64,000 bases of DNA from Achromobacter spanius (GTDB taxonomy: Bacteria > Pseudomonadota > Gammaproteobacteria > Burkholderiales > Burkholderiaceae_B), in assembly GCF_002812705.1 (NCBI RefSeq), contig NZ_CP025030.1, forward strand, positions 4,154,001-4,218,000, read 5' to 3'. The translations under genes were made by a program, and so were the position numbers. Of this stretch, positions 7,822 to 29,491 are shown piece after piece; within the stretch, counting starts at the first letter, position 1, and each line of letters starts with the position of its first letter. Below the pieces are notes generated by a model, which saw only the letters and a program-made list of their open reading frames with translations, had not been told where the DNA came from and made no database searches.

Positions 7822-8244
7822 GTGCGTACCCCTGCCCGACCCGCTTTCATGCTGCTTGGCGCCGCCATGCTGACGATCCTGGCCGCGTGTGGGGACGAGC
7901 GGGCGGCGCTCACGCCAAACCTGACGGCAGCCGCCCTGCCCGAGCGGGCCGACGCCGTCCGGGGCAGGCAATGGATAGCGGACTATGGCTGCCTGGCCTG
8001 CCACGCCGTGCCTACGGTGCGAGGGCCGGCCTCGTCCGTCGGGCCGCCCCTGGGCAACGTGGGGCGGCAAGCCTACCTGACCGGCCTGTTGCCCAACACG
8101 CCCGACAACCTGGTCCGCTGGCTGATGGACCCACCCGCCATCAATCCGCGCACCGCCATGCCCAACGTGGGCTTGAGCCAGGCCGAGGCCGAGGACATCG
8201 CCGCCTTTCTGCTGTCACAGCCCGAGTCACCGGAGCCATCATGA
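7822..8244 (+). CDS. Cytochrome c lipoprotein, monoheme
   Basis: This 140-residue protein has a lipoprotein signal (n-region RTPAR, hydrophobic core, lipobox LAAC with C23) and one heme c site, CLACH (57-61), with a probable distal methionine in TAMPNVG. I chose the GTG at 7822 because GGAGG lies 8 bases upstream and the signal peptide starts there; the ATG at 7771 would add a hydrophilic leader. The C-terminal half (LPNTPDNL...INPRTAMPN) is closely related to the second cytochrome of the next gene and to the cytochrome tail of the divergent oxidase subunit II. It probably feeds electrons to that oxidase. Confidence 0.88.
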   Translation: MRTPARPAFMLLGAAMLTILAACGDERAALTPNLTAAALPERADAVRGRQWIADYGCLACHAVPTVRGPASSVGPPLGNVGRQAYLTGLLPNTPDNLVRWLMDPPAINPRTAMPNVGLSQAEAEDIAAFLLSQPESPEPS

Positions 8245-9194: not shown

Positions 9195-9282
9195 GTAAGT
9201 TCCATCGCCTCTGGACCAGGCATGGGCCAGCGCCACCGGACTAGGCAGGTTCCTTCGCCCCCGACTAGGCTTGGGCCAGCGC
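9189..9282. repeat. Imperfect direct duplication at the apaH 3' end
   Basis: A segment of about 45 bp at 9189-9233 is repeated imperfectly at 9239-9282. Both copies begin GACTAGG and end GGGCCAGCGC. The second copy contains the apaH stop codon and last codons (LAQA), and the first begins at the stop of the diheme cytochrome. The duplication fills the whole gap between the two convergent genes. Confidence 0.75.
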
Positions 9283-10134
9283 ATCGACAGCGCTGGCCGG
9301 GAGCGCGTCCAGCCCCACTTGCAGCAGCTTCCGGTCGCCCAGCCGTAATGCCGTCAACACGCCGCCCGTCACACAGCCGGTGTCCAGGCAGGCCACGTCG
9401 CGGCGCACCACCAAACCCAGCGTGGCCCAATGCCCGAACAAGATGGGTGTATCCGCGCAGCGCCGTTCGGGCACGTCGAACCACGGCATGGTGCCTTGCG
9501 GCCAGTGGCCGGGCGTGGCGCGAGCCCCCAACGCCATGGCGCCATCGCGCGTGCACAGCCGCATGCGGGTAAAGGCATTCAGGATAAAGCGCAGCCGCTG
9601 CTCGTCATGCAGCTTGGGGCTCCAGGCGCGGGGCGAGCCGCCCTGCAAGGCGTGCATCGTCTTGCGCCAATGCTCGCCGCGAAGCGCGTGCTCGCCCTCT
9701 TCCGCCAAGGATTTGGCGGTGGCGACATCCCATTGGGGGTGGATGCCGGCATGCGCCAGCACGTGGCCGGCTTCGATGTGCATCAACGGGCGCTTGCGCA
9801 GCCAGTCCAGAAGCTCGTCCAGGTCGGGCGCGTTGAAGAGATCGCCAAGCGTGTCGCGCCTGCCCGGGCGCACACTACCCGCCGCGATTGCCAACGCCCG
9901 CAGATCGTGATTACCCAGCACCACGGTTGCGCGCTCACCCAGCCCCTTGACGCGGCGCAGCGTCGCGGCGGACGCGGGCCCCCGGTTGATCAGGTCGCCC
10001 ACGAACCACAGGCGGCATTCGGGTTCGTCCGAGATCTCGGGGCGGGCCAGCAGCGCGTCCAGGAAATCCACGCAACCATGCACGTCGCCAATCGCCCAGA
10101 TTGACGGGATGCCCGGTATTGGCTGCTGATCCAT
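9265..10134 (-). CDS. apaH: Bis(5'-nucleosyl)-tetraphosphatase, symmetrical (ApaH)
   Basis: This 289-residue metallophosphoesterase hydrolyses Ap4A to two ADP in the cytoplasm and can also remove Np4 caps from RNA. The metal-binding motifs are all present near the N-terminus: AIGDVHGC, FVGDLINRGP and VLGNHD, followed by HAGIHPQW and the C-terminal HWATLG segment. Length matches the family (about 270-285). It lies upstream of nothing coupled; the next gene on the same strand, a small DUF1488-like protein, ends 21 bases before its start, so they may be co-transcribed. Confidence 0.95.
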   Translation of the reverse strand: MDQQPIPGIPSIWAIGDVHGCVDFLDALLARPEISDEPECRLWFVGDLINRGPASAATLRRVKGLGERATVVLGNHDLRALAIAAGSVRPGRRDTLGDLFNAPDLDELLDWLRKRPLMHIEAGHVLAHAGIHPQWDVATAKSLAEEGEHALRGEHWRKTMHALQGGSPRAWSPKLHDEQRLRFILNAFTRMRLCTRDGAMALGARATPGHWPQGTMPWFDVPERRCADTPILFGHWATLGLVVRRDVACLDTGCVTGGVLTALRLGDRKLLQVGLDALPASAVDALAQA

Positions 10135-12399: not shown

Positions 12400-12580
12400 C
12401 GTAGGATGGGTGGAGCGCGGCAAAGCAGCGAAAAGAACAACACTGCGATCCGCGCGAAACCCATCAAGCGGCGCCCCAATTCTTCTGCAGCCTAGCCACA
12501 TAGCCACCGCTGCATGATGGGTTCCGCGCGATCGGCGTTGGAGTCCTGGGCACGACCCTGCCGCGCTGCACCCATCCTAC
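12400..12580. repeat. Palindromic repeat element, copy 2 (181 bp)
   Basis: This second copy is nearly identical to the one ending 19 bases before it, with the same CGTAGGATGGGT start and ACCCATCCTAC end and the same central block around CAAGCGGCGCCCCAATTC. Its right terminal repeat contains the stop codon (TAG on the minus strand, 12577-12579) of the PdeM-like gene, so the element abuts and partly defines that gene's end. No transposase is present in the window. Confidence 0.85.
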
Positions 12581-13257
12581 CCGCCCAAGGTCACCGCGCT
12601 GCCTTCCACACAGGCCACCAGGGCGTGGCTATCTTCCACACTCACCGCGTAGCCGCCCGTGAACGCCGAAAACGCGGGCAAGACGGTAATGCCGGGGCGT
12701 AACCAGAACGCCGGCCAATCTCTCGGCACGCCGGGCAGCCGGGTTTTGGGGTGCACGTGTCCGGCGATGACGTGGCGGCCGTGCGGGTCAGGCTGCGGCA
12801 GATGGCGGAACACAAAGGGGCCGTCGACATAGGCTTCGCCCAGTTGCCGCATTCCCAACGCCGCCCCCTCCAGCGCGCGGTCGTGGTTGCCCGCCAGCAC
12901 CGCGACATCCAGGGCGGCATGGGCCTGCCGCCATGCTTCCCAATCTTCACGCCAGCCCGCTTGCGACATGGGGCCATGCAGCACGTCACCCACCACCCAT
13001 AGCTCGCGCGCACCGGTGTCGTGCACCAGTTGCGTGAGCCGGTCCAGGTCGGCCTGGGTGGCGCCGCGCGGCACGGCGATGCCTGCCTGCCGGAACACAT
13101 GGCTCTTGCCCAGATGCAGGTCGGCAATGACCAGCCGTGCGCGCGCCGGCCAATACAAGGCACGCTGGCCGAGCAGCAGTACGGCTTCACCCGCCAGGCG
13201 GATGGCCAGGGTGTCGTCATGCGCGCTGTCAGAAATTCCGTCACCCGATTCCGGCAT
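12577..13257 (-). CDS. pdeM: Ligase-associated DNA damage response endonuclease PdeM
   Basis: This 226-residue calcineurin-like metallophosphoesterase carries all metal motifs: IADLHLGK, VVGDVLHG, LAGNHD and IAGHVHPK. PdeM is the phosphoesterase of the four-gene ligase-associated repair cassette, thought to process DNA ends. It is the last gene of that cassette here: its start overlaps the end of the helicase gene by 17 bases. Its stop codon lies in the terminal inverted repeat of an adjacent palindromic element, so the last residues (TLGG) may have been changed by insertion of that element. Confidence 0.92.
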   Translation of the reverse strand: MPESGDGISDSAHDDTLAIRLAGEAVLLLGQRALYWPARARLVIADLHLGKSHVFRQAGIAVPRGATQADLDRLTQLVHDTGARELWVVGDVLHGPMSQAGWREDWEAWRQAHAALDVAVLAGNHDRALEGAALGMRQLGEAYVDGPFVFRHLPQPDPHGRHVIAGHVHPKTRLPGVPRDWPAFWLRPGITVLPAFSAFTGGYAVSVEDSHALVACVEGSAVTLGG

Positions 13258-15787
13258 AGCGCTTCTCCAGTTGCGCGGCGGCGCGCTTGACTCGAGCCTG
13301 CCAGCTTTCCGTGCTGAGCTGCCCGCGCAGGCTTTCGGTCCATAGCGGGAACGACAGGGGTGTCAGCGCGCGGGGTTGGCACAGGTCCAGCGCGCGCGAT
13401 TCGCAATCCTGCAATGCCGCCAGCAGGCGCGGGGCTTCCAATTGCTGTTCAAACACTTCGCGCTCGGCTTGCGCAAGCAGCAGGTGGTCGGGGTCGTAGC
13501 GGCGCAGCACGTCATACAGCAGGCCGCTGGACGCCTGCACCTGGCGCAGCGAACGGGCCGCCCTGCCCGGCAGCGACGGCGTCAACAAGCCCGCCACACG
13601 CGCAATTTCCCGGAATTGCCTGCGGGCAAGCTCCCCCAGGTTGACGCCGTCGCGCAGGTCAGCGGCCATGTTCTCGGGGCTGATCAGTTGGCGCAGCAGC
13701 GTGTCGTCCAGCTCAGCGGGTTCAGCCAACGTCAACATCAAGCCGTAATCATTGACCGTATAGGAAAAGGTATTGGCCTGAAGCCGGCCCCAGCGCAGCG
13801 CGACCATGGCGGCCATGCCTTCGTGGACGGCGCGGCCCGCGAACGGAAACAGGAACACGTGCATGCCCCGCCGCGTGGCGATGCGTTCGGCCAGCAGCCG
13901 ACCGGGCGCCGGCAGCGCACTGGCTTCGCGTTGAATGCGCAGCAAGGGTTCGACCGCGCGCATTTCCGGGTGGTCGCCGGGCTCGGCATACAGGCCCAGC
14001 ACTTCGCGCGCCAACTGCGTGGACAGCGGCATGCGCCCGCCCTGCCAGGTGGCCACCGGCCCATCGCCCCCCTTGGCCCGCCGCACATAGGCCGTCATGC
14101 CTTCCAGGCGCACCAGTTCCAAGGTGCGTCCGGCAAACTGGAAACGGTCGCCTGGCCGCAGCCGTGCCAGAAACCCTTCTTCGACCGAGCCCAGCCCGCC
14201 GCCGCGCAAGTACTTCACCGACACCGCGCCGTCCGCCGTGATAGTGCCGATGGACAAGCGATGCCGCAGCGCGATGCGGCGGTCGTGCACGCGGTAGCAG
14301 CCGTCTTCGTCTTTTTCAACGCGGCGGAATTCCGGATAGTTGGACAAGGCGCGGCCGCCCTGCACGATGAAATCCAGCACCGCCTGCCAGGTGGCCACGT
14401 CCAGCTCGGCATACGCATGGCTGCCGCGCACCTCGTCAAACAGCGCGTCGGCCTTGAAGCCGCCACCCAGCGCCAGCGTGACCGCGTGCTGCGCCAGCAC
14501 GTCCAGGCTGCCGCGCGGCGGGGGCCGCGATTCGATTTCGCCGCGCGCGATGGCCTGTCGCGCGGCGGCGTACTCGATCAGTTCCAGCGCCTGCGCGGGC
14601 ACGCACAGCGCATGGCCGGATTCGCCCGGACGGTGCTTGGCCCGCCCTGCCCGCTGCAACAGCCGCGCCACGCCCTTGGGGCTGCCCACCTGCAACACCT
14701 GGTCCACCGCCGGAAAGTCCACGCCCAGGTCCAGGCTGGAGGTCGCCACCACACAGCGAATACTGCCGTCGCGCAGGCCCTGTTCGGCGCGGTTGCGCAG
14801 CGCCGGGTCCAGCGAACCGTGGTGCAGCGCCAGCGTGGCCGGGTCTTCCGGCCAGATCGATTCCAGCGCGCGGTGCCAAAGCTCGGCCTGCGCGCGGGTG
14901 TTGGTGAACAGCAGGCTGGCGCGTACGTCGAACAGCCGCTTGTACACGCGCGGCAATTGAGACAAGCCCAGATGCCCGGCCCAGGGCAGCGCGCCGTTGC
15001 GCTCGGGCAGCAAGGTCGACAGCGTCACCTTGCGCGGCCGCGCGCCCGCCACCAATGCGCTCTGCGGCCGATGCGGCAGCAAGACATCGCGCGCTTCGTC
15101 CAGATTGCCCAAGGTGGCCGACAGGCCCCAGGTGCGCAAGGCGGGCGACAGGCGTCGCAGACGGGCCAGGCACAGTTGCAGCAACACGCCGCGCTTATTG
15201 CCCAGCAGTTCATGCCATTCATCCACCACCACCGCGCGCAGCGCCCGAAAGCGCGACGAGGCATCCGCGTACGACAAAAGCAGCGCCAGCGATTCCGGCG
15301 TAATGACCAGCACGTCGGCCTTGCCCTGGCGGGCCAGCCGTTTGTCGCGCGCGCTGGCGTCGCCCGTGCGCAGGGCCACGGTCCAGCCCAGGCCCAGTTC
15401 GCTTGCTGTCTGGGCCAAGGCGCGGGCGGTGTCGGTGGCCAGGGCGCGCAGCGGCGTCACCCAGAGCACCCGGGGGCCTTCGCCGGTTGTTGGCCTTGCC
15501 ACATCCGGGTTGGACAAGGCTTCCAACACTGGCCCACCGAAGGCCGCCAGCGTTTTGCCGCTGCCGGTTGGCGTGTGCAGCAAGCCGGATTCGCCCGCCA
15601 GATACCGTTGCCAGGTCTCGCGCTGAAACGCCGCCGCCCGCCAGCCGCGTGCCTTGAACCAGGCCGCCAGCGGCGCGTCCCAGCCGCGCGCGGGCGGGTT
15701 TGTCGCGGGCTTAGTCGCCGGCTCCATCGCGGGTTCGATGTCGGGCTCTGTCTCGGCTTCCATCGCAGATTTCCTTGCGATGCTCAT
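13241..15787 (-). CDS. Ligase-associated DNA damage response DEXH-box helicase (Lhr-type)
   Basis: This 848-residue superfamily 2 helicase has Walker A TPTGSGKT, Walker B DEWH (in VVDEWHELLGNKRG), motif III LSATLGN, and motif VI-like QRAGRAKHRPG, followed by Lhr-type winged-helix and C-terminal domains. Lhr proteins are 3'-to-5' helicases; this shorter form is the one linked to an ATP-dependent ligase, exonuclease and PdeM. The ATG at 15787 overlaps the ligase stop as ATGA. The first 35 residues include an acidic/Pro/Thr low-complexity run (EPAMEPATKPATNPP). A long antisense frame covering this gene is a high-GC artefact. Confidence 0.93.
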   Translation of the reverse strand: MSIARKSAMEAETEPDIEPAMEPATKPATNPPARGWDAPLAAWFKARGWRAAAFQRETWQRYLAGESGLLHTPTGSGKTLAAFGGPVLEALSNPDVARPTTGEGPRVLWVTPLRALATDTARALAQTASELGLGWTVALRTGDASARDKRLARQGKADVLVITPESLALLLSYADASSRFRALRAVVVDEWHELLGNKRGVLLQLCLARLRRLSPALRTWGLSATLGNLDEARDVLLPHRPQSALVAGARPRKVTLSTLLPERNGALPWAGHLGLSQLPRVYKRLFDVRASLLFTNTRAQAELWHRALESIWPEDPATLALHHGSLDPALRNRAEQGLRDGSIRCVVATSSLDLGVDFPAVDQVLQVGSPKGVARLLQRAGRAKHRPGESGHALCVPAQALELIEYAAARQAIARGEIESRPPPRGSLDVLAQHAVTLALGGGFKADALFDEVRGSHAYAELDVATWQAVLDFIVQGGRALSNYPEFRRVEKDEDGCYRVHDRRIALRHRLSIGTITADGAVSVKYLRGGGLGSVEEGFLARLRPGDRFQFAGRTLELVRLEGMTAYVRRAKGGDGPVATWQGGRMPLSTQLAREVLGLYAEPGDHPEMRAVEPLLRIQREASALPAPGRLLAERIATRRGMHVFLFPFAGRAVHEGMAAMVALRWGRLQANTFSYTVNDYGLMLTLAEPAELDDTLLRQLISPENMAADLRDGVNLGELARRQFREIARVAGLLTPSLPGRAARSLRQVQASSGLLYDVLRRYDPDHLLLAQAEREVFEQQLEAPRLLAALQDCESRALDLCQPRALTPLSFPLWTESLRGQLSTESWQARVKRAAAQLEKRYAGIG

Positions 15788-17409
15788 CGCGCCAGCGCCT
15801 TCAGCGTATCCAACTGGTCGGCCTCGGCGGCGGGTTTGTCGCGCCGCCATTTGAGGATGCGCGGAAAGCGCACGGCCACGCCCGACTTGTGGCGCTTGGA
15901 CAGGTTGACGCCTTCAAAGCCCAGCTCGAACACCTGCACCGGCTCCACCGAGCGCACGGGGCCGAAGCGTTCGCGCGTGTGGGCGCGCAGCCATCGGTCG
16001 AGTTCCAGGATTTCCTTGTCGTCCAGCCCGGAATACGCCTTGGCGATGGGCACCAGCGCATCCCCTTGCCACAGGCCGAAGGTGTAGTCGGTGTACAGCG
16101 TGCTGCGGCGGCCATGGCCGGACTGCGCATACAGCAGCACGGCGTCGATGGTGAGCGGGTCGATCTTCCACTTCCACCAATCGCCGCGCCGTCGTCCACT
16201 TTGGTAGCCGGCGGCGGCGCGCTTGAGCATGAAGCCTTCCACGTCGCGCTCGCGCGATTCCAGGCGCAATTCGGCGGCGGCTTCCCAACTGCCCGGCGCC
16301 ACCGTGGGCGACAGCGACAGGCGCGGGTTGGGATGGCGTTGCAGCAGCGCTTCCAGCATGGCGCGGCGCTCGGCCTGCGGTCGGTCGCGCAGGTCGGCGC
16401 CGTTTTCCTCCAGCAGGTCGTAGGCCAGCATGCGCACTGGCGCCTCGGCCAGCCACTTGGGGCCGGGCTTGAGCCGCTGGATGCGAGTTTGCAAGGCCGA
16501 AAACGGCATGGGTCCGGTGGCGTCTTCCTGCCAGGCCAGCAGTTCGCCGTCCAGCACGCAGTCCACTTGCAGCGCGTGGGCGGCGGCTTCGACTTCCGGA
16601 AAGCGGCCGTCCAGCCGTTCTTCGCCGCGCGACCACAGCGCCACTTCGCCATGGCGGCGGATCAGTTGGGCGCGGATGCCGTCCCATTTCCATTCGATCA
16701 GCCAATCATCAATGGGGCCGAGCTTGGCCGGCTCGCCTTCCAGCGGCGAGGCCAGAAAGAACGGGTATGGCTGCTGGCGGTCGCCGGGCAAGGCTTCGGT
16801 GCTGAGCAGATCGCGCAGAAAGGCGGGGCTGGGCGTCCACGTACCCAGCATGCGTTGCGCGATGCGGGCAATGGGCACGCCCGACATTTCGGCTAGCGCC
16901 TGCTGCACCATGCGCTGCGACACGCCCACCCGCAGCGCGCCGGTCAACATTTTGTTGAACACCAGGCGCTGGTCGAACGGCAGGCTGCGCCAGGCCGGCA
17001 CGATGATGTCGCGGCGTTTGGCTTCGTCGCGGTTGGCGGCGGGCAGCAGCACTTCTTCGATCCAATCGGCCAGGCCGCGCTCGGGACTCGCCTGCCCTTC
17101 TTGTTCGGCGGCGGGTTCGGGATCCGGCATCAGCAACGCCAAGGTCTCGGCCAGGTCGCCCACCTGGTCATAGCTGGCGTCCAGCAGCCAGGGCGGCGTG
17201 CCGGAGGCGGCGGCGGCCCAGGCGCGCAGTTCGGCCACGCCCGCGATCTTGCGGCGCGCGCTGCTGATCTTGCCGCCCGCCAGCAAATACAGCGCCCAGA
17301 CCGCGTCGCGCGGCGGCGCATCGCGAAAGTACGCCACCAATGCCGCCCGCTTGTCCAAGGTGGCGGTACTACGGTCCAGTTCCTGATACAGCGCCGCGAA
17401 TCGCTTCAT
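15784..17409 (-). CDS. Ligase-associated ATP-dependent DNA ligase (LigB/LigC-like)
   Basis: This 541-residue ATP-dependent DNA ligase has an N-terminal helical DNA-binding domain, the nucleotidyltransferase motif I EWKWDGIR (catalytic lysine near residue 240), motif III-like VLDGELLAW, motif IV EGFMLKR, motif V WWKWK, and a C-terminal OB domain. It seals nicks in duplex DNA using ATP. It is coupled to the downstream helicase (ATGA overlap) and follows the exonuclease by about 19 bases, giving the standard order exonuclease-ligase-helicase-PdeM seen in the ligase-associated DNA damage response cassette. Confidence 0.94.
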   Translation of the reverse strand: MKRFAALYQELDRSTATLDKRAALVAYFRDAPPRDAVWALYLLAGGKISSARRKIAGVAELRAWAAAASGTPPWLLDASYDQVGDLAETLALLMPDPEPAAEQEGQASPERGLADWIEEVLLPAANRDEAKRRDIIVPAWRSLPFDQRLVFNKMLTGALRVGVSQRMVQQALAEMSGVPIARIAQRMLGTWTPSPAFLRDLLSTEALPGDRQQPYPFFLASPLEGEPAKLGPIDDWLIEWKWDGIRAQLIRRHGEVALWSRGEERLDGRFPEVEAAAHALQVDCVLDGELLAWQEDATGPMPFSALQTRIQRLKPGPKWLAEAPVRMLAYDLLEENGADLRDRPQAERRAMLEALLQRHPNPRLSLSPTVAPGSWEAAAELRLESRERDVEGFMLKRAAAGYQSGRRRGDWWKWKIDPLTIDAVLLYAQSGHGRRSTLYTDYTFGLWQGDALVPIAKAYSGLDDKEILELDRWLRAHTRERFGPVRSVEPVQVFELGFEGVNLSKRHKSGVAVRFPRILKWRRDKPAAEADQLDTLKALAR

Positions 17410-17428: not shown

Positions 17429-18436
17429 TCAATCGTCTTCGCCGTATTGGGTGGCCAGCGTTTCGGCCGCCGTGCCGGCGTCGTTCAGCGTGCGCACCAG
17501 CGCGTCCGTATCGCCATGCGTGGCGATGACGCGGCGCGCGCCCGTTTCATGGATGGTGCGCAGCAGGTCAGGCCAATCGGCGTGGTCCGACACGACAAAG
17601 CCCCGATCCATGTTGCGACGCCGGCGGTTGCCCCGCAAACGCATCCAGCCCGACGCAAAGCCGTGCTGCGCGCGGCGGAACCGCCGAAGCCATGTGCTGC
17701 CCGCGGCCGAGGGCGGGGCCAGGATCAGCTCGCCGGCAAAGCCCGGCCCGGACGCGGCCGGTGCGCCACCATCGGCATCGATGACCAGACGCGTGTCGGC
17801 CATGTGGATACCCGCCTGCCGGTACACGTCGACACCGGCCGCGATCGCGCCGTGCAAATAAACGGGCCGGTCGATCCAGGGGGCCAATTCCGCCAGCACG
17901 CGCTGCGCCTTGCCCAGCGCGTAGCAGTACAGAATGGCGGCCTCGCCGCGGGCGGCGCACAGGTCGCGCCATTGGACGATGTCGCGCGCCACTTCGGCCG
18001 TGTCGGGCCAGCGGTAAATGGGCAAGCCAAACGTGGCTTCGGTGATGAAGGTGTCGCAGGGCACCACTTCGAAGGGGCTGCAAGTGGGGTCCGGCTGGCG
18101 CTTGTAGTCGCCCGACACCACCCAGACCTGCCCATCGGCTTCGATGCGGACTTGCGCCGACCCCAGCACGTGGCCGGCCGGGTGCAAGGAGACCCGGGCG
18201 TTGCCCAGCGTGAAGACGTCTCCGTAACCGTGCACGCGGTAGTCCTGATCCCCCAGTCGCCACTGCAAGATGGGCAGTCCTTCGGCGCTGGTGTGATAGC
18301 AGCCCATGCCCACGCGGGCGTGGTCGCCGTGGCCGTGGGTGAGCACGGCGGTGGCCACCGGCCGCCAGGGGTCGATGTAGAACTGGCCGGCCGGGCAATA
18401 CAAGCCTTCAGGCCGCCATTGCACGACGTCGGGCAT
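17429..18436 (-). CDS. Ligase-associated DNA exonuclease, metallo-beta-lactamase fold
   Basis: This 335-residue protein has a metallo-beta-lactamase / beta-CASP-like fold with zinc motifs HGHGDH near residue 34-39, GHVLGSAQV, SGDYKRQ and SDHADW. It is the exonuclease of the four-gene ligase-associated repair cassette and is its first gene. The ATG at 18436 is chosen over 18454 because a near-perfect GAGGAGGT ribosome site ends 5 bases upstream. The 73-bp gap upstream is shared with a divergent 25-residue membrane peptide gene. Confidence 0.93.
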   Translation of the reverse strand: MPDVVQWRPEGLYCPAGQFYIDPWRPVATAVLTHGHGDHARVGMGCYHTSAEGLPILQWRLGDQDYRVHGYGDVFTLGNARVSLHPAGHVLGSAQVRIEADGQVWVVSGDYKRQPDPTCSPFEVVPCDTFITEATFGLPIYRWPDTAEVARDIVQWRDLCAARGEAAILYCYALGKAQRVLAELAPWIDRPVYLHGAIAAGVDVYRQAGIHMADTRLVIDADGGAPAASGPGFAGELILAPPSAAGSTWLRRFRRAQHGFASGWMRLRGNRRRRNMDRGFVVSDHADWPDLLRTIHETGARRVIATHGDTDALVRTLNDAGTAAETLATQYGEDD

Positions 18437-18509
18437 CGAAACCTCCTCGGGCATGAGTTGTGCTGATGGGCGTGGTGTGTGGCACTTTCACGATACTTCA
18501 AGAGGTCTT

Positions 18510-18587
18510 ATGCGAACCAAGCACATTCTGACGATCCTGGCATTGGTGGTGGCGGTGGCGGTGATGATGTCGATGGCGCCGTGGTGA
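18510..18587 (+). CDS. Putative 25-residue single-pass membrane peptide
   Basis: A very short frame begins with ATG at 18510, preceded by AGAGGT 6 bases upstream. It encodes a positively charged start (MRTKH) followed by about 18 hydrophobic residues rich in Val, Ala, Leu and Met, ending APW before two tandem stops (TGATGA). This is the architecture of small bacterial membrane proteins. It is divergent from the repair exonuclease and lies 83 bases before the 3' end of the glycosyltransferase. I do not recognise a family. The evidence is composition, ribosome site and double stop only. Confidence 0.55.
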   Translation: MRTKHILTILALVVAVAVMMSMAPW

Positions 18588-18660: not shown

Positions 18661-18690
18661 GCCGGCCGGGTCATAAGCCGGCCGGGTCAT
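18661..18690. repeat. 14-bp direct repeat across the glycosyltransferase stop
   Basis: GCCGGCCGGGTCAT occurs at 18661-18674 and again at 18677-18690, a 16-bp period. The second copy codes the last residues (NDPAG) of the glycosyltransferase and the first contains its stop codon. It resembles other small duplications at gene ends in this window. Confidence 0.8.
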
Positions 18691-19354
18691 TAGCCGCCGT
18701 CCAACCACCGCGCAGCGCGCTGGCAAAGCCACCCTCCACCCGCGAATGCGGGCGCGCGCTGGTAGTCACGCGCGGCAGGCTTGACCACGCGATCCGGGCC
18801 CCACCCTGCTCCAGCTTGTCCACCAGCGCCTGGTCTTCGCTGCACGGCAACGCTTCAAAGCCGCCAATGCGGCAATACGCGCCCGCTTCGATACCCAGGT
18901 TGGCGCCGTGCACATGCCGATGCCCGTCGCGATCCTGGTACTGCCCGGTAAACGTCCGGCGCGCCTGCGCGGCGCGGACGCCGTGCTCGCGCCAGCCCGC
19001 CACGCCCACCGTGCCGCACACGACTTCCGCATTCAAGGACAACTGATCCACCAGCCAGCGCGGCGATACGCGAGTGTCGGCGTCGGTGAACGCCAGCCAG
19101 CGCGCGCCGGCTTGCAGCAGATCGTGCGCCCCTTGCGCGCGGGCCACCCCGACATTGCGCGCGCCGATCGCCAGGCTATGCACGGGCCACGCCCCGATCA
19201 ACTGCGCCGTGCGATCCACGCAATGATCCAGCACCACCACCACGCGCACGGCCTCGGCGCGCAGCTTCGGGTGCCGCGCCGCCCGCAGCACGGAGCGCAG
19301 GCAGGCGGTAATGTGGCGTTCTTCGTTGTGGGCCGGAATACAGATGCCGATCAT
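18671..19354 (-). CDS. Glycosyltransferase family 2 protein
   Basis: This 227-residue GT-A fold enzyme has the family start ICIPAHNEERHI, the metal/nucleotide motif FTDADTRV (DXD type) and the acceptor region GGFEALPCSEDQALVDKL. It has no membrane segment, so it is a small cytoplasmic or peripheral enzyme transferring a sugar from a nucleotide donor; the acceptor is unknown. It is the last gene of the run ku, ligD, acyl-CoA dehydrogenase-like, methyltransferase, glycosyltransferase, following the methyltransferase by 3 bases. Its function in an NHEJ operon is not explained by known biology. Confidence 0.88.
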   Translation of the reverse strand: MIGICIPAHNEERHITACLRSVLRAARHPKLRAEAVRVVVVLDHCVDRTAQLIGAWPVHSLAIGARNVGVARAQGAHDLLQAGARWLAFTDADTRVSPRWLVDQLSLNAEVVCGTVGVAGWREHGVRAAQARRTFTGQYQDRDGHRHVHGANLGIEAGAYCRIGGFEALPCSEDQALVDKLEQGGARIAWSSLPRVTTSARPHSRVEGGFASALRGGWTAANDPAGL

Positions 19355-19357
19355 GGC

Positions 19358-19951
19358 TCACCCTTCCTGTTGTCGGTGCCACCCGTCCAGCGCAAAAGCG
19401 CTGTCCTGGTGCTTGAAAGTCGGTACGAGCCCGCGCAGCGAACCTAGCGCATCGTGCAAGGCATTGGTGGCTTGCAGGCGGTCGTCGAAATCCGGCCGGT
19501 AGTGGCAGGCCACCAGTTCGCCATCGTTGGCCAGGCAGCGGTCCACCCCTTGCAGGAACAGCTCCAAGGCGGCGTCGTCCAGGTAATACCCCAGTTCTGA
19601 CACGATGATCAGGTCAAACCCGCCATGCGGCACGGGCGGCCATTCGCGCGGCAGGTCCAGCGTCAAGGTGTCCACATGGTCAATGCCTTGGTCTGCCAGC
19701 CGCGCGCGGCAGCGGCTGAGCGCGGTGCCGGCGAAATCCGCCGCGCAAACGCGCTGGCAGCGAGCGGCCAGCAGCAAGCTCAGGTCACCGTTGCCGCAGC
19801 CCGGCTCGAAGGCATGGCGGTAATGCTCCCGCGCCAGCCCCGCCAGCAGCAGCGTGCGCTTGCGCCGTTCGTACCAGGCGCTGCCGACGCGCCAGGGGTC
19901 GGCGTGCTGGCGGTACAGCGTTTCGAAGTGGTCCACGCCTACAACTGCCAC
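19358..19951 (-). CDS. Class I SAM-dependent methyltransferase (NodS-like)
   Basis: This 197-residue methyltransferase shows motif I HAFEPGCGNGDLSLLLA and motif IV FDLIIVSELGYYLDD, with the N-terminal YRQHADPWRVGSAWYERRKR segment typical of NodS-like enzymes, which N-methylate amino-sugar acceptors. The start is a GTG at 19951 with AGGAGGAA 6-7 bases upstream; that site and start lie inside the last codons of the acyl-CoA dehydrogenase-like gene (13-base overlap), so translation is coupled. Together with the glycosyltransferase 3 bases downstream it suggests modification of a sugar-containing molecule. Confidence 0.85.
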   Translation of the reverse strand: MAVVGVDHFETLYRQHADPWRVGSAWYERRKRTLLLAGLAREHYRHAFEPGCGNGDLSLLLAARCQRVCAADFAGTALSRCRARLADQGIDHVDTLTLDLPREWPPVPHGGFDLIIVSELGYYLDDAALELFLQGVDRCLANDGELVACHYRPDFDDRLQATNALHDALGSLRGLVPTFKHQDSAFALDGWHRQQEG

Positions 19952-21039
19952 GGCGGTTCCTCCTGATTGCGGACCAGCCGCCCCAGCGCCGCCTGATCGC
20001 GTTCCGCGTGGCTTTGCCGGATGAAAACGGGCAGATCGGCCATCACCTGAGCGAAACCGGCGTCGCGGCACAGCGGCCCGGCGCCCAGCGCCCGCCCTGC
20101 CCGTGTGATTACCTCATTGGCGGCGGCCTCGACAGCCAGCCGCGCCCGAGCGCAGGCCAGCGCGCAGGCGTCCTTCGGGTTCGCGTCGATGAGGGCGGCG
20201 GTGTCGCGCAACACGGCGCGCGCCTGCGCCATGGCCACGTCGACGGCGCCCAGATGGGCCAGCCGATGCGGGTTTTCCGTCGGTGCGCTTGGTGCGTTTG
20301 GTGAGTTTGGTGCGTTTGGCCTCTCTGCCGGCGTGGCGGCTCGCAGCGTCGACGCAATGCGCGTCAACCCGCCATACCAGCACGCCGCCACGCCCGCGCC
20401 GCCATGTTGAAAGCCCGGCCGGTTCACGTAGGCACCCGGCGCGCCGACGGGCTGGCACACCGCGTCATCGAACACCACGTTGACGCTGGCCGACGCGCGC
20501 ATTCCCACCGCATGCCAACCGTCGTTGGTGACCGCTACGCCAGGCTGATCCAGGGCTACCGCCACCAGGCAAGGTTCGCCCGCGGGGTCCCAAGCGCTGA
20601 CCAGCGCATGGCTGATCGTGGCGGCGCCGGAACACCATGCCTTCACGCCGCGCAAACGGGCGCTGCCGTTGGGCTGCGGGACCAGCGCCACGCGGTAATC
20701 GGGAGGCTCGGCGCACCACACGCCCCAGCGGCTGCCCGCAGGCGCGTCAGGCGTCAGGCCGAGTTCCGCAAATATCGCCAAGGCATCCGTGTGCCCTTCA
20801 TACAGTTTGACCAGGCTGAGGTCCACGGCGGCCACGCGGGCCAGCGCCTGCCAGCGGGCCAGCGTGGCGCCGGAACCTGGTAGCGGCAGGTGGTCACAGC
20901 CGGCATCCACCAGGTGGCGCATGGCCATGCCGGGATCGGGCGGCTCGGCCAAATCACTCCAATAGCCCATATCGCTCAACACGCGGCGAATGGCGGCCAA
21001 GGGCGCGCTGGGCAACAGAATCGCGGGGCGGCTGGTCAT
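19939..21039 (-). CDS. Acyl-CoA dehydrogenase-like protein
   Basis: This 366-residue protein has the acyl-CoA dehydrogenase layout: N-terminal helices (1-110), a central beta domain with LRGVKAWCSGAATISHALVSA (FAD-binding type, about 130-160) and a C-terminal four-helix bundle (about 215-355). Family members oxidise acyl thioesters with FAD, but the usual catalytic glutamate cannot be placed with confidence, so activity is open. A Pro/Asn/Ala run near residue 245 (NAPNSPNAPSAP) comes from four 9-bp DNA repeats. Its ATG overlaps the ligD stop as ATGA, and its last codons hold the ribosome site of the methyltransferase. Confidence 0.82.
   Translation of the reverse strand: MTSRPAILLPSAPLAAIRRVLSDMGYWSDLAEPPDPGMAMRHLVDAGCDHLPLPGSGATLARWQALARVAAVDLSLVKLYEGHTDALAIFAELGLTPDAPAGSRWGVWCAEPPDYRVALVPQPNGSARLRGVKAWCSGAATISHALVSAWDPAGEPCLVAVALDQPGVAVTNDGWHAVGMRASASVNVVFDDAVCQPVGAPGAYVNRPGFQHGGAGVAACWYGGLTRIASTLRAATPAERPNAPNSPNAPSAPTENPHRLAHLGAVDVAMAQARAVLRDTAALIDANPKDACALACARARLAVEAAANEVITRAGRALGAGPLCRDAGFAQVMADLPVFIRQSHAERDQAALGRLVRNQEEPPWQL
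20282..20317. repeat. Four 9-bp in-frame repeats in the acyl-CoA dehydrogenase-like gene
   Basis: The unit ggtgNgYtt is repeated at 20282, 20291, 20300 and 20309 and encodes the NAP/NSP run on the minus strand. It falls in the loop between the beta domain and the C-terminal helical bundle, where length change would be tolerated. Confidence 0.85.
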
Positions 21040-23639
21040 GACTTGCCACGCTTGAAATCCAGCGCATCCATGGCCGGCCCCACCGCTTGCGGCGCATAGC
21101 CGTCCCAGGGTGAGTTGCCCGCGTCCAGACGCTCATGGATATTGCTGATGGTCCAGTGCGCGCCGCTGGATAGTTTGTCGAGTTCGTCCCACGCCACCGG
21201 CACCGACACGCCCATGCCGGGCCGCGCCCGCGCCGACCACGCGGCCACCGTCGTTGCGCCAAAGCCATTGCGCAGATAGTCGGCAAAGATCTTGCCCACG
21301 CGATTCTTGGGGCCGCTTTTAGCCACGAAAATCTGCGGCAAGGTGCGGGCCAGATGCACCACGACGGTCTGCGCAAAGGACTTGAGCGTGTCCCAATCGT
21401 ATTGACGGCGCAGCGGCACGACCACATGCAAGCCCTTGCCACCACTGGTTTTCAGCCAGGATTCCAGGCCAAGTTCATCCAGCATGGTGTGCACCAGGCG
21501 GGCAGCCTGCTGCATCGTCGCCCACTTGACGCCTTCGCCGGGGTCCAGGTCGAACAGCATGCGGTCGGGTTTGGAGATGGCCGTTTTCACGGCGTTCCAG
21601 GTATGGAATTCCACCACGTTCATCTGCACGGCCGACATGATGGCTTCGGCGGTGGGCACTTCCAGCAGCGGCGGATGATCCGGGTCCAAGCGCGTGGGCA
21701 AGGACTTCACGCCCGGCATGGCGGCTTCCAGGTGCTTCTGGAAAAAGAGCTGGCCGTCGATGCCGGAAGGCGCGCGCAGAAAGGATACGGGGCGGCCTTT
21801 CAGGTGTTCCAGCATCAGAGGTGCAACCAGGCCGTAATAACGCGCCAGATCCAGCTTGGTCAGTTTGGTCGACGGATCGATGACGCGCTCGGGGTGCGTC
21901 AGCCGCGCGGGTTTGGCGCGCGCGGGGGCCGTGGCCTGGGGCTTGGTGGTGGGCGAGTTGGTGGACTTGACCTGGGACTTGGCCCGCGGCTTGTCGGTGC
22001 TCACGGCCTGCGATCCAGACGCCGCAGCCGGCTTTTCCCGTGTGATCTGGCTGGGCGGTTTGTCTTGGCGCAAGCCGCGAAAGACCGAATGGCGGATATG
22101 CCCGCCGCTGGTCCATTCGCCGAACGACACCTCGGCCACCAGTTCCGGCTTGACCCAGTGCACTCCTTTCGCCTGCCCGCCGCTGACGGGCTTCTTGTCG
22201 GTTTCAAGGCCGGATAAAGTCTTGTGCAGCGCAATCAACCCCTGGCGGTCAAAGCCGGTGCCGACCTTGCCCGCATAGCGCAAGGCGCCGTCGTCCTCAT
22301 GCACGGCCAGCAGCAAGGCGCCCAGGCCTTCGCGCGCACCTTGCGGGGCGGTATAGCCCACGATGACGAACTCTTGTCGCTTGGCGCACTTGATCTTCAG
22401 CCAGCTATCGCTGCGCCGCGATACATACGGCGCCGACTGGCGCTTGGCCATGATGCCTTCCAGCCCCATCTTGCAGGCCGACGCCACCAGGTTCGACGGC
22501 GTTTCCTTGAACGCTTCGCTAAAGCGCAGAAAGTCGTCGTCGGCGGTGTCCATCAATTGCGCCAGCAGGTCACGCCGCACGGTCAGCGGTTCTTCGCGCA
22601 GGTCCCGACAGCCGATAAACGGCAGGTCAAAGGCGTAGAACACGATATCGCCGGTGCGGTCGTTGTCAAAAGCGTTTTGCAGCGCCTGGAAACTGGGCAC
22701 GCCCTGGTCGTTCAGCACGACCACCTCGCCATCGACCCATGCCCATTTGGCGGGCAGCTTGGCAAACGCCTGGACGATATGCGGCAGCTTGGCGCTCCAG
22801 TCGTGGCCGTTGCGGGTGTACAGCTTGACCGACTCCCCTTCGATGCGCACCAGCAGGCGGTAGCCGTCGAATTTCAGTTCGTACAGCCAGTCTTCCGCGT
22901 GCGGCGGCAGGCCGTCTACCAGCGTGGCAAGTTGGGGCTTGAATGAGGTGGGCAGATCGGCCGGCCGGCCGGGCAGCTTGCTTGCTGTGGAGGAGGCCTT
23001 GGTATCGGTATCGGGCGTAGTGGCGGCCGCTGTAGCGGACTTCGTAGCGGCCTTGGCTTTAGCCTTCGTCTTGCCAACGGCCTTCGCATCCCGCAGCGGC
23101 ACCACGCTGTCCGGCATTTCGTCCACCACGCTGAATTCGCGTTCGGGGCGCGCATAGGCGTCGCGGTCCTTGATCAGCAGCCACGGCGGCTGCTTGTCGC
23201 CTTCCTTGCCCTTCATGCGCACCAGCGCCCATCGGCCCTGCATCTTCTTGCCTTGCAGGTCGAACTTCAGGTGCCCCTCGCGATAGCCTTTGCGCGCATC
23301 GGCCACGGGTGTCCAGACCCCTTCGTCCCAGATGATGACCTTGCCCGCGCCGTATTGGCCTTCGGGAATCTGGCCTTCGAACTGGTTGTAGGCAATGGGG
23401 TGGTCTTCCACCTGTACGGCCATGCGCTTGACCGAGGGGTCGAAACAAGGCCCCTTGGGCACAGCCCAACTTTTCATGGCGCCGTCCAGCTCCAGGCGAA
23501 AGTCGTAGTGCAGCCGGCTGGCCCAGTGCTTCTGGATGACGAAAGCGCGCGCGGACTCGTTGGCCTGCCCGCCCTCGGCGGGTTCGGTGGTCACCTTGAA
23601 ATTGCGCTTTTGCCGGTAGGTTTTAAGACTGTCGGCCAT
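21036..23639 (-). CDS. ligD: DNA ligase D (LigD), NHEJ
   Basis: This 867-residue protein joins three domains in the order 3'-phosphoesterase, ligase, polymerase. The phosphoesterase (about 1-165) has FVIQKHWASRLHYDFRLELDG and FEGQIPEGQYGAG. The ligase (about 225-530) has motif I YELKFDGYR with the adenylated lysine. The primase-polymerase (about 575-860) has LFDLDPGEG and TSGGKGLHV. Two Ala/Lys/Ser/Thr-rich linkers separate them. LigD with Ku repairs double-strand breaks by end joining. It starts 1 base after the ku stop and overlaps the acyl-CoA dehydrogenase-like start as ATGA. Confidence 0.97.
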   Translation of the reverse strand: MADSLKTYRQKRNFKVTTEPAEGGQANESARAFVIQKHWASRLHYDFRLELDGAMKSWAVPKGPCFDPSVKRMAVQVEDHPIAYNQFEGQIPEGQYGAGKVIIWDEGVWTPVADARKGYREGHLKFDLQGKKMQGRWALVRMKGKEGDKQPPWLLIKDRDAYARPEREFSVVDEMPDSVVPLRDAKAVGKTKAKAKAATKSATAAATTPDTDTKASSTASKLPGRPADLPTSFKPQLATLVDGLPPHAEDWLYELKFDGYRLLVRIEGESVKLYTRNGHDWSAKLPHIVQAFAKLPAKWAWVDGEVVVLNDQGVPSFQALQNAFDNDRTGDIVFYAFDLPFIGCRDLREEPLTVRRDLLAQLMDTADDDFLRFSEAFKETPSNLVASACKMGLEGIMAKRQSAPYVSRRSDSWLKIKCAKRQEFVIVGYTAPQGAREGLGALLLAVHEDDGALRYAGKVGTGFDRQGLIALHKTLSGLETDKKPVSGGQAKGVHWVKPELVAEVSFGEWTSGGHIRHSVFRGLRQDKPPSQITREKPAAASGSQAVSTDKPRAKSQVKSTNSPTTKPQATAPARAKPARLTHPERVIDPSTKLTKLDLARYYGLVAPLMLEHLKGRPVSFLRAPSGIDGQLFFQKHLEAAMPGVKSLPTRLDPDHPPLLEVPTAEAIMSAVQMNVVEFHTWNAVKTAISKPDRMLFDLDPGEGVKWATMQQAARLVHTMLDELGLESWLKTSGGKGLHVVVPLRRQYDWDTLKSFAQTVVVHLARTLPQIFVAKSGPKNRVGKIFADYLRNGFGATTVAAWSARARPGMGVSVPVAWDELDKLSSGAHWTISNIHERLDAGNSPWDGYAPQAVGPAMDALDFKRGKS

Positions 23640-23640
23640 G

Positions 23641-24585
23641 TCACGCCGCCTTGCGCGTAGAGGACGAGGCTTTGGTGGTCTTGCCCGCGGTCTTTCCCGT
23701 CGCCTTCTTGGTGCTCTTCGCCGACTTCTTCGCGGCCGTCTTGGTGGATGCCTTCTTCTTCGCGGCGGCCGGCTGTTGCTTGGCCGTCTTGCCTCCCTTC
23801 AAACTACGTTGCAGCAATTCCGTCAGGTCGATGACGTTATCGGCGTATTCGGGCGCTTCTTCCTGCGGTTCGACAACGGTTTCCGTCTTGCCGGCCTTCA
23901 CCTTGCGAGCCACCAGGTCCATCACGGCGGCCTTGAATTCGTCCTTGAATTCCTCGGGGTCCCACTTGCCGGACATGTCCTCGACCAGCATCTTGGCCAT
24001 CTTCAATTCGCTGGCGCTGGGCGCCATGCCCTTGGCGCCGACTTTGGGCAGATCCAGCCCTTCCAGCGACTTGACGTCATCGCCCCAGCGCATCAGGTTC
24101 AGCACCAGCACATCGCCCGACGGAATCAAGGCGGCCAGATGCTGTTTGGTCTGGATCACCACCTTGGCGATGCCGATCTTGCCGGTCTTGGCCAAGGTGT
24201 CGCGCAACAAGGCGTACACCTTTTGCCCCTTGTTGATGGGCGCCACGTAGTACGGCCGTTCAAGGTAGACAAAAGAGACGTCGCCGGCCTCCACAAACTG
24301 TTGTATCTCTATGGTTTGCGTGGTGCGGGGATAGGCGTCGGCGATCTCTTCCGGGGAAATGATCACGTACTGGCCGTCTTCGTATTCCACGCCTTTGACG
24401 ATGTTCTCTTTGTCGATTTCCTTGCCCGTGCGCTTGTTGATGCGCTTGTACCCCACGGGGTCCATCGAGCGTTTGTCCAGCCAGTCGAAGTCGACCCCGG
24501 AGTCCGTCGTTGCCGTATGCAGGCCGACCGGTATATGGACGAGGCCAAACGAAATAGCCCCCTTCCAGATGGTTCTTGTTGCCAT
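23641..24585 (-). CDS. ku: Non-homologous end joining protein Ku
   Basis: This 314-residue protein starts with the conserved IWKGAISFGLVHIPV and contains YERPYY-like sequence (FVYLERPYYVAPI) and the KWDPEEFKDEF segment that ends the Ku core (about residue 255). A Lys/Ala/Thr-rich tail (about 265-314) follows, as in many bacterial Ku proteins where it aids DNA threading. Ku homodimers bind double-strand ends and recruit LigD, encoded immediately downstream with a 1-base gap. It leads an operon of at least five genes. The AT-rich region upstream holds two inverted repeats. Confidence 0.97.
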   Translation of the reverse strand: MATRTIWKGAISFGLVHIPVGLHTATTDSGVDFDWLDKRSMDPVGYKRINKRTGKEIDKENIVKGVEYEDGQYVIISPEEIADAYPRTTQTIEIQQFVEAGDVSFVYLERPYYVAPINKGQKVYALLRDTLAKTGKIGIAKVVIQTKQHLAALIPSGDVLVLNLMRWGDDVKSLEGLDLPKVGAKGMAPSASELKMAKMLVEDMSGKWDPEEFKDEFKAAVMDLVARKVKAGKTETVVEPQEEAPEYADNVIDLTELLQRSLKGGKTAKQQPAAAKKKASTKTAAKKSAKSTKKATGKTAGKTTKASSSTRKAA

Positions 24586-24908
24586 GATCCGCTCCTCTCA
24601 GTCGGTGCTGAGTGCAGCAAATTGTGTTCCCGCCTGGAATGGGGCGTCGTCAAAGAATGCGAATTCATAGTTAAGAAAGCACTTTAACTATTTTGCTTTA
24701 ACGATGGACGATTAGACAGATCTATCAAGTAGTTATCGATTACTTAGAAAGTAATTTCTACCTTCAATATCTGCACTGCCGAACGCCCATCTTGATGTGC
24801 AAAGGGAAAACCCGAAGAAACTTTTTCAATTGAGAGTCGGTCGCAATTCGTTCAGTTGCATGTCAGGCGGGCCCGCTCGTGGCCTATCTCCCCTTTCCGA
24901 GAGTACCG
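24586..24908. promoter_or_regulatory. AT-rich divergent control region of ku and an APC transporter
   Basis: This gap is AT-rich compared with its surroundings and holds no gene that I can support. Two perfect inverted repeats stand out: ATAGTTAA (24667-24674) with TTAACTAT (24684-24691), and ATTACTT (24739-24745) with AAGTAAT (24749-24755). Either could be an operator for the divergent ku or transporter promoters. No sporulation- or stress-sigma consensus can be asserted by eye. Confidence 0.6.
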
Positions 24909-27826: not shown

Positions 27827-29134
27827 TCAGGCAGGAGCACGCCACGCCGCCAGCGTCGATTCCACCAAGGCGATCTCGTCCTGCCCCATGCCGGCAGCCG
27901 CGTAATACCGCTGGCGCCGGGCTACGACACTGCGCACCGCGTCCACGATCGAGCGCGCGGCCGCCTCGGACCGCAACCCAAAACGCCGGTACTCCGACAG
28001 GCAATTCTCAAACGTGCTGTCGCGCTCGGCCGTGCCGATATGCAGGTAATGGCGGGCGGAGCCTTCCTGCGTCACCACGTCGAACAGCGGCGCCAGCCGA
28101 TAGGTATGGGCGCCCTCGTCCTTCAGAAACCCCACGTTCTTCAGGTGGTCGTCGGTGTTGTGGACGGCCACGTTAAGAATCATGCGCGCGTACAGCTCTT
28201 TCAGGTCCTGCACCGGGTTCGACGAAATGCGGCGTGTGACGTCGGCCAGGCGCGCATAGGAATACGTGGCCTTGCCCTGCGGCCCGTCCAGGTCGCGCTT
28301 GCCGATCTGGACGGACGGGCTGATCAACGACGCGCCGCTTAGAAAATGGCGGCGTGCCACCACGGGCGCCGCGCCTTCAGGCACCGGCAGCAGCTCGCGG
28401 TCAAAGCGATGAGTCAGCAGCACCGCGCCCAGATGGGTTTCGGTCAGCCGGATGTCGGGCACGGTCAGCCCGATGGCGCGCGCCATCCGCAAGTTGGCGA
28501 ACTCCACGCGCTGCCGATCATAGGAATCGCCTTTGCGCGGAAACTTGGCAATCCACATTTCGCCCTGCTCGTCGCGCACGATGGTCTTGGGGCGCGCGCC
28601 GCCGATATCCCAGGAACTGCCCAGGATGTCGCGATACAAGCCTTTGGGCTTCACGCCCTGGTCGATATCGGTCAACAGGTCGGCCAGGGAATCCAGTTGG
28701 CTGACTTCGGGCAACCGATAGGTCTTGCGCATGTTTGGCGTCAGCAGGCGCGCGCTGAAAAACAGCGCGCCCACGCCCATGCCCCGGCCGCGCAGCAGTA
28801 CTTCGTCTTCCGTGACCCGCGCGCCCGCCTTGTCCACCCGCATGACGTTGCGCCCCCAGGCGTCGGGCGCCGCATCAAAGATGGCGCCCAGCGTTTCGTA
28901 GCGGCTTTCGGTGCGAAACGTGGTGGCGGCATCGATCAGCGGCAGGTTGAGCGGGTCCAGCGCGAAGGCGCGTGGGTCGCGCACGTAGGAATGCACGTAG
29001 GTGAATTCGGCGAAGAAGCGGGTTTCGTCGGAATCGTCCAGCGTCAGCACGCCGGCCAAGACGGCTTCGCCACGGATGTCCACGTAGACGAACAGTTCGC
29101 TTTCCACGGATTTGTGCTTGCGGGCGCGCGCCAT
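27827..29134 (-). CDS. hipA: HipA-family serine/threonine kinase toxin
   Basis: This 435-residue protein is a HipA-type kinase. The N-terminal subdomain 1 (about 1-110) ends with the WGRNVM segment; GGARPKTIV is the nucleotide-binding/P-loop-like region, NVAVHNTDDHLKN is the catalytic loop (aspartate within HNTDDH), and LAPLFDVV carries the metal-binding aspartate. HipA kinases phosphorylate aminoacyl-tRNA synthetases or other targets and cause growth arrest, neutralised by HipB. It lies 12 bases after the HipB-like gene, giving a normal antitoxin-toxin operon. All key residues seem intact. Confidence 0.92.
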   Translation of the reverse strand: MARARKHKSVESELFVYVDIRGEAVLAGVLTLDDSDETRFFAEFTYVHSYVRDPRAFALDPLNLPLIDAATTFRTESRYETLGAIFDAAPDAWGRNVMRVDKAGARVTEDEVLLRGRGMGVGALFFSARLLTPNMRKTYRLPEVSQLDSLADLLTDIDQGVKPKGLYRDILGSSWDIGGARPKTIVRDEQGEMWIAKFPRKGDSYDRQRVEFANLRMARAIGLTVPDIRLTETHLGAVLLTHRFDRELLPVPEGAAPVVARRHFLSGASLISPSVQIGKRDLDGPQGKATYSYARLADVTRRISSNPVQDLKELYARMILNVAVHNTDDHLKNVGFLKDEGAHTYRLAPLFDVVTQEGSARHYLHIGTAERDSTFENCLSEYRRFGLRSEAAARSIVDAVRSVVARRQRYYAAAGMGQDEIALVESTLAAWRAPA

Positions 29135-29146
29135 GCCGACCCCGGC

Positions 29147-29491
29147 CTATAGCTTGGAAGGGTCGGCGCGGTGCGCATGCAAGGCGGCGCTGCTGCCTCG
29201 ACTGGGCCGGCGCAAGGCGTCCAGCCGCTTGCCCACGCCGTCTAGTTCGGGGTCGCCCAGGGCGAACACCTGGTCGGCATAGCCGTATTGCAGCAAGGCC
29301 TCGATCGCCAGGGCCAGCGATACGCCGCCGTCGCCCCGCTCCAGCCGCGCGATGGTGGCACGCGAAACGCCCATGCGGCTGGCCAGCACGCTTTCGGATT
29401 CGGCACGACGCAAGCGGGCTGTGCGCAGGTTGGCGCCTAGGCGAATCAGCGCTTCGGCAGCGTCAAAGCTGGGCTCGATCTTCTTTTTCAT
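29147..29491 (-). CDS. hipB: HipB-like helix-turn-helix antitoxin
   Basis: This 114-residue protein has an XRE-type helix-turn-helix (about 18-72; LASRMGVSRATIARLERGDGG) and a C-terminal basic, Ser/Arg-rich tail. HipB binds both HipA and operator DNA, repressing its own operon. It is the first gene of the pair, and the AT-rich 137-bp region upstream contains two related 18-20-bp palindromes that are natural operator candidates. The C-terminal tail after residue 90 is longer than the degradable tail of E. coli HipB and differs in sequence. Confidence 0.88.
   Translation of the reverse strand: MKKKIEPSFDAAEALIRLGANLRTARLRRAESESVLASRMGVSRATIARLERGDGGVSLALAIEALLQYGYADQVFALGDPELDGVGKRLDALRRPSRGSSAALHAHRADPSKL

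Follow-up and report, generated by a model that had tools for sequence, protein, structure and literature searches.

Three genes directly behind the nonhomologous end-joining (NHEJ) genes ku and ligD of Achromobacter spanius belong to a module of their own. They lie in a 64 kb stretch of this 6.43 Mb genome (positions 4154001–4218000; the whole of this stretch is called the window here) and encode an acyl-CoA-dehydrogenase-fold flavoprotein (ACAD), a NodS-like S-adenosylmethionine (SAM) methyltransferase (MT), and a GT2-family glycosyltransferase (GT2). We find that this trio is the Achromobacter form, lacking a PIG-L deacetylase gene, of an ACAD-PIG-L-MT-GT2 cluster of beta- and gammaproteobacteria. 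Its coupling to NHEJ is specific to one lineage, in which an independent module has been wired to the repair genes. From our analysis, there is about an even chance (probability 0.5) that the module makes a methylated, oxidised sugar conjugate that serves survival of drying or starvation, and not end joining, with the ku promoter being shared in this Achromobacter clade.

The four-gene cluster and its Achromobacter form

A profile built from 18 ACAD sequences was run against the GTDB species genomes, in which at least 545 stretches encode a relative. The best 80 were kept. Four of these are from Achromobacter and 76 from other hosts, including Variovorax, Pseudomonas, Caballeronia, Janthinobacterium, Duganella, Xenophilus, Comamonas, and Halomonas (63 with full 10-kb flanks and 13 shortened). 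Gene content was scored by tblastn at 1e-8: MT is present in 74 of the 76 loci, GT2 in 56, and all four genes in 55. GT2 went undetected nearby in 20 loci, among them loci of Caballeronia and Xenophilus (L080, L088, L089, L099, L106, L122, and others), and one locus (L086) has ACAD ~6 kb away from PIG-L, MT, and GT2.

The trio of the window fits this quartet by its adjacent, same-strand ACAD, MT, and GT2 orthologs; the PIG-L gene between ACAD and MT is absent. The original prediction, an earlier reading of the window, had taken the trio for a small sugar-modifying pathway. The enzyme families fit that role; however, the trio does not describe the module fully: a fourth gene is present in 74 of the 76 non-Achromobacter loci, and Pfam identifies it as a PIG-L deacetylase in the two loci checked. 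We found no description of the ACAD-PIG-L-MT-GT2 quartet in the literature searched. Many Pseudomonas quartets have an additional PIG-L protein encoded after GT2 (e.g., L069, 13022–13912).

The window carries the trio as the last part of a packed run of five genes:

23641–24585, minus strand: ku, which opens the run (TIGR02772, 300.7 bits against a cut-off of 150; PF02735)
21036–23639, minus strand: ligD, with phosphoesterase, ligase, and polymerase domains (PF13298, PF01068, PF04679, PF21686; TIGR02776, 693.8 bits against a cut-off of 373.2)
19939–21039, minus strand: ACAD-fold flavoprotein gene, with a complete acyl-CoA-dehydrogenase fold and a sequence nearest the TdsC/DszC monooxygenases
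19358–19951, minus strand: NodS-like SAM methyltransferase gene, with a GTG start (PF05401 NodS, 41.5 bits against a cut-off of 24)
18671–19354, minus strand: GT2-family glycosyltransferase gene, with a GT-A fold and an invariant DAD motif at residues 91–93

With Ku above its cut-off and all three domains present in LigD, the first two genes are an NHEJ pair. The ACAD protein of the window scores 30.1 bits on Pfam PF02770, below the cut-off of 33.3 that its ortholog in L036 passes at 37.1, and stays under the cut-offs of NCBIfam SfnB (45.2 bits; cut-off 430.9) and DszC (34.3 bits; cut-off 850). In a PDB profile search, its sequence favours TdsC/DszC, and its relatives include these enzymes and the amino-sugar nitrososynthases; the fold search cannot separate a dehydrogenase from a monooxygenase. 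Profile matches of MT are to 4isc (9e-68) and to NodS (3ofj, 1.9e-22, over almost the full length). It passes the Pfam NodS cut-off and, at 57.7 bits, falls short of the cut-off of 300 for NCBIfam NodS (NF041650). GT2, which passes PF00535 and has a D-x-D type metal motif in its GT-A fold, comprises 227 residues covered by a single GT-A domain in the model. The PIG-L protein of the quartet matches diacetylchitobiose deacetylase (2.9e-15), BshB (2.4e-8), and MshB (1.2e-6) by profile.

A PIG-L gene was detected neither in the window nor within or close to the trio of any of the 21 Achromobacter loci retrieved. The A. spanius genome has three PIG-L genes, all outside the window, one of which matches quartet PIG-L weakly (32–36% over 57–118 residues, from three of six quartets). 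Among the 23 Achromobacter genomes with a trio, 8 (one 57% complete) hold just the long PIG-L protein that is present in all 43 genomes of the genus. We therefore rejected a PIG-L acting in trans in Achromobacter, given no clear ortholog among the three genes of A. spanius and these 8 genomes with only the long shared protein. PIG-L is also absent in L037 and L094, and its presence switches at least twice on a module tree that took in 27 chosen non-Achromobacter loci. The absence of PIG-L from the Achromobacter trios thus suggests that the shortened module does without a dedicated deacetylase or borrows a general one.

The Ku-linked clade and the wider genus

The order ku-ligD-ACAD-MT-GT2-exonuclease-ligase-helicase-PdeM is common to the window and four other genomes (G236, G234, G217, and G233). 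Beyond the packed run, the window continues with:

18510–18587, plus strand: convergent small open reading frame (ORF) of 25 codons between GT2 and the exonuclease gene (MRTKHILTILALVVAVAVMMSMAPW)
17429–18454, minus strand: ligase-associated exonuclease gene, first of the neighbouring repair cassette and outside the module (TIGR04122, 462 bits against a cut-off of 325)
15784–17409, minus strand: ATP-dependent DNA ligase gene of the cassette (TIGR04120, 605.4 bits against a cut-off of 400)
13241–15850, minus strand: DEXH helicase gene of the cassette (TIGR04121, 1070.6 bits against a cut-off of 850)
12577–13257, minus strand: PdeM endonuclease gene of the cassette (TIGR04123, 195.9 bits against a cut-off of 150)

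All four families of this cassette, TIGR04120–04123, are therefore present next to the module.

The junctions of the packed run are +1 (ku-ligD), −4 (ligD-ACAD, as ATGA), −13 (ACAD-MT), and +3 bases (MT-GT2). This confirms the single-strand arrangement and the spacing given in the original prediction, the 13 bases being an overlap. MT has its GTG start at 19951, with AGGAGG standing 5′ of it. The ku-ligD gap of +1 and the ATGA at the ligD stop are found in five of five Ku-linked loci (in one, L126, the ACAD start was set by eye), while the MT-GT2 junction is +3 in three of them and −4 in two. The packing is thus conserved in the sister loci. Tight coupling had been said to imply co-expression. 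We prefer a softer wording: co-expression is likely, given that the packing has been kept in five species.

Ratios of nonsynonymous to synonymous substitution (dN/dS; Nei-Gojobori) between the window and the four sister loci are 0.15–0.20 for ACAD, 0.19–0.27 for MT, and 0.07–0.17 for GT2, compared with 0.07–0.16 for ku and 0.08–0.13 for ligD. All five genes are under purifying selection, as working genes would show.

The position of the convergent 25-codon ORF between GT2 and the exonuclease cassette indicates that the ku-to-GT2 unit probably closes there. AAGAGG precedes the ATG of this ORF. Its start region is identical in all five Ku-linked loci, each of which retains the ORF, and its 14-base start pattern is missing in 19 of 24 loci scanned. 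At the other end, upstream of ku (24586–24800), a GTTAAAG...AGTTAAAGT block is conserved across the five Ku-linked loci; by exact pattern, it was found upstream of none of 35 other Ku genes. A promoter and terminator scan returned sites no commoner than in shuffles (1 versus 1.1; 5 versus 7.3). Outside the module, at 27827–29491 on the minus strand, ORFs resemble a HipA-type kinase and an XRE-type regulator, as judged by eye.

Across the genus, orthologs of ACAD (E < 1e-20) and of GT2 are found in an identical set of 23 of 43 genomes. In 5 of these genomes, the trio follows ligD; in 7, it follows PdeM of the ligase-associated cassette; and in 11, it adjoins neither. The module was retrieved from ten of the eleven unlinked loci (the other, in G210, has ACAD split over contigs). 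In these ten, the trio is intact and occupies seven contexts, with three pairs sharing common flanks. Ku is encoded by 40 of the 43 genomes, namely 22 of 23 with the trio and 18 of 20 without it (p 0.59). A Ku-LigD tree was built for 33 genomes, with 7 genomes whose Ku is 47–51% identical and 3 lacking Ku omitted; it shows one change of the Ku link and a minimum of nine gains or losses of the trio. The five Ku-linked loci form one clade on the module tree, nested in a larger clade that holds the PdeM-linked loci.

Two further observations concern these trees. Seven Achromobacter genomes (L146, L147, L168, L172, L174, L178, and L179) have a Ku 47–51% identical to that of the window and a LigD at ~43%, as if replaced. 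At L137 (G209), the trio groups with repair-linked loci and Ku-LigD with trio-less genomes, a possible horizontal transfer of the trio.

The ligase-associated exonuclease is found in 19 of 23 genomes with the trio versus 5 of 20 without it (p 2e-4 before allowing for kinship). With kinship taken from the Ku-LigD tree, ~2 of 7 pairs are in the same direction and 0 in the opposite one (p 0.5), which is too few for significance either way. A tie between the trio and the ligase-associated cassette was set aside on this loss of significance in a weak, seven-pair test.

Much of the genus-level pattern would be expected from hitch-hiking, in which a chance rearrangement put the module in a repair locus and the ku-ligD link is meaningless for either function. 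The single change of the Ku link, the repeated gain and loss of the trio, the variety of unlinked contexts, and the independence of trio and Ku all favour it. However, the exact packing at the ligD stop has been kept in five species at a synonymous divergence (dS) of up to ~0.9, and the trio adjoins one or other repair operon in 12 of 23 trio genomes. Furthermore, Ku is present in 46 of the 49 ACAD-bearing genomes reached from non-Achromobacter loci (drawn from the first 50 of the 76 by rank; not corrected for kinship). On balance, we consider hitch-hiking unlikely, though still a serious competitor.

Neighbours and Ku outside Achromobacter

Outside Achromobacter, the module recurs beside genes of trehalose and glycogen metabolism. 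Of 23 Pseudomonas loci, 22 have a GlgX-cluster gene immediately before ACAD; all 22 also have MalQ and TreY clusters upstream, and 21 loci have GlgA. These neighbours were typed on one representative each: MalQ, TreY, and GlgX score above their cut-offs, GlgA was recognised as a fragment, and TreZ is untyped. In Pseudomonas syringae, PSPTO_3131–3134 are presumably homologs of the quartet.

The published P. syringae operon PSPTO_3125–3130 has the order glgA, treZ, malQ, treY, PSPTO_3129, glgX and, as given in that paper, ends at glgX (PMC8982409). According to the same paper, deleting both this glgA-to-glgX operon and the treS operon increases sensitivity to osmotic stress and drying, with the drying phenotype ascribed by the authors to alpha-glucan (PMC8982409). 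Its main text contains none of the words acyl-CoA, LmbE, and methyltransferase, so that the quartet is not mentioned under any of them (PMC8982409).

An OtsA-type gene is found upstream in L103, L109, and L120 (Giesbergeria, Comamonas, and Delftia). It was typed in the latter two, with a score in L109 that is 0.95 bits short of the TIGR02400 cut-off. L109 and L120 also have a trehalose-phosphatase cluster (typed in L109). In the Comamonas locus L109 (3481–13000), LigD-Ku is on one strand and otsB-otsA-ACAD-PIG-L-MT-GT2 on the other, with LigD/Ku ~3 kb from ACAD. This island unites trehalose synthesis, NHEJ, and the quartet.

Upstream of eight Caballeronia-type loci, there is an SBF-like transporter gene (typed in L080). 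This neighbour, along with the Nod-factor-like set of GT2, deacetylase, and NodS-like methyltransferase, would suit a product that is secreted or placed in the envelope, such as a signal or a surface glycolipid, instead of an internal stress compound. However, among the neighbours examined, most of which are untyped, we saw no transporter cluster common to several genera, and GT2 amounts to its one GT-A domain. We regard a secreted or envelope glycoconjugate as improbable. The remaining loci have differing neighbours, mostly untyped, apart from Variovorax, where L047, L050, and L052 have a Rad3/YoaA-type helicase cluster and L047 and L050 an AlkB-like 2-oxoglutarate oxygenase (typed in L047 only). 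In L047, both stand upstream of the quartet (6506–9455).

Repair genes of the window type are rare beside the quartet. Within 10 kb of the 76 non-Achromobacter loci, Ku is found in two (L060 and L109) and LigD in one; exonuclease and PdeM are found in none of the 76. At the level of whole genomes, the association is stronger. Of 200 genomes across the order, 9 have an ACAD ortholog; Ku is encoded by 8 of these 9 versus 27 of the 191 without ACAD (p 3e-6; not corrected for kinship). Across the class, ACAD occurs in 5 of 369 genomes, with Ku in 4 of the 5 (two from one genus) versus 27 of 364 (p 2e-4; not corrected for kinship). Genome size accounts for part of this co-occurrence, and kinship confounds it too. 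Size as the sole cause was rejected, since among genomes of at least 4.5 Mb with a recorded size in the order set, Ku is still present in 7 of 7 with ACAD versus 6 of 12 others (p 0.04). The original prediction had named co-occurrence of the trio with ku and ligD as a check: the physical link proved rare, and the genome-level association is strong though subject to these confounders.

The least probable alternative is that the trio is a true accessory of end joining or of the damage response, acting through a metabolite, through modification of protein or DNA, or through AidB-like DNA protection by ACAD. Its packed run with ku-ligD, the two arrangements of repair neighbours in the genus, and the unlinked genomes G210 and G220, in which Ku lies ~12–16 kb from the module on the opposite strand, are in its favour. 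So are the Variovorax helicase and oxygenase, the Comamonas island, the high frequency of Ku in ACAD-bearing genomes, and one ACAD homolog labelled AidB-like in a JGI record. However, Ku is near-universal in the genus irrespective of the trio and seldom close to the module elsewhere, the association with the exonuclease fades once kinship is considered in that weak test, and AidB is missing from the PDB profile match list for ACAD (E 1e-3). With linkage confined to one clade (5 of 23 trio genomes, one change on the tree) and rare elsewhere, we dropped the trio as an NHEJ accessory from its place as the leading reading, and the originally predicted membership of an NHEJ system is not supported.

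A proposed pathway and its likeness to known systems

We thus favour an independent pathway to a methylated, oxidised sugar conjugate. By likeness to the Nod-factor and mycothiol-type pathways, GT2 would transfer a sugar, probably N-acetylglucosamine, onto a small acceptor. PIG-L, where present, would take off the N-acetyl group, and the NodS-like MT would methylate the freed amine, or another position where PIG-L is absent. The ACAD-fold flavoprotein, being nearest to class-D flavin monooxygenases, would oxidise the sugar conjugate. In the Ku-linked clade, the ku promoter may drive the module, such that the metabolite and NHEJ would be made under the same stress. The two would then be partners in regulation, not in mechanism.

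If this pathway exists, an overlooked route to a stress metabolite is present in very many genomes of Pseudomonas, Variovorax, Achromobacter, and the Caballeronia type, as judged by the at least 545 stretches that encode an ACAD relative. In Pseudomonas, it would adjoin genes already linked to trehalose and to survival of drying. The Ku-linked clade would be a natural case in which metabolite genes and double-strand-break repair genes appear to be on one transcript. This bears on what a drying bacterium makes besides trehalose and repair enzymes. The interesting part is therefore the module itself, a predicted sugar pathway that recurs beside trehalose synthesis and in NHEJ-bearing genomes.

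A more specific proposal is tentative, and we hold it at well below even odds. The quartet might be an unrecognised, Nod-factor-like proteobacterial route to a new class of amino-sugar protectants that are N-methylated and oxidised by the flavoprotein. These would be produced alongside trehalose and NHEJ in a single programme for surviving drying, and the Achromobacter clade would have fused a shortened, deacetylase-free version of the quartet into its ku-ligD operon.

Several known systems resemble parts of this arrangement. The ku and ligD of the window are canonical for Ku-LigD NHEJ, of which the trio is no conserved part. The P. syringae treY/treZ operon corresponds to the GlgA, MalQ, TreY, and GlgX clusters upstream of ACAD in the Pseudomonas loci; it differs in that the operon, as described, stops at glgX (PMC8982409). 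Among the closest known relatives of ACAD are the class-D flavin monooxygenases TdsC, DszC, and MsuC and the amino-sugar nitrososynthases KijD3 and DnmZ.

In the mycothiol and bacillithiol pathways, MshA/MshB and BshA/BshB make small stress metabolites. The quartet likewise pairs a glycosyltransferase with a PIG-L deacetylase, whose profile matches MshB and BshB. It differs in having a GT2 enzyme that is not of the MshA/BshA type, and a methyltransferase and flavoprotein replace cysteine ligation. The core Nod-factor enzymes of rhizobia are NodC, NodB, and NodS, with a deacetylase of the NodB type, other than the PIG-L type. Although the quartet has a PIG-L type deacetylase, an extra ACAD-fold flavoprotein, a short GT2, and an MT below the NCBIfam NodS cut-off, it shares with this system the combination of a GT2 enzyme, a deacetylase, and a NodS-type methyltransferase.
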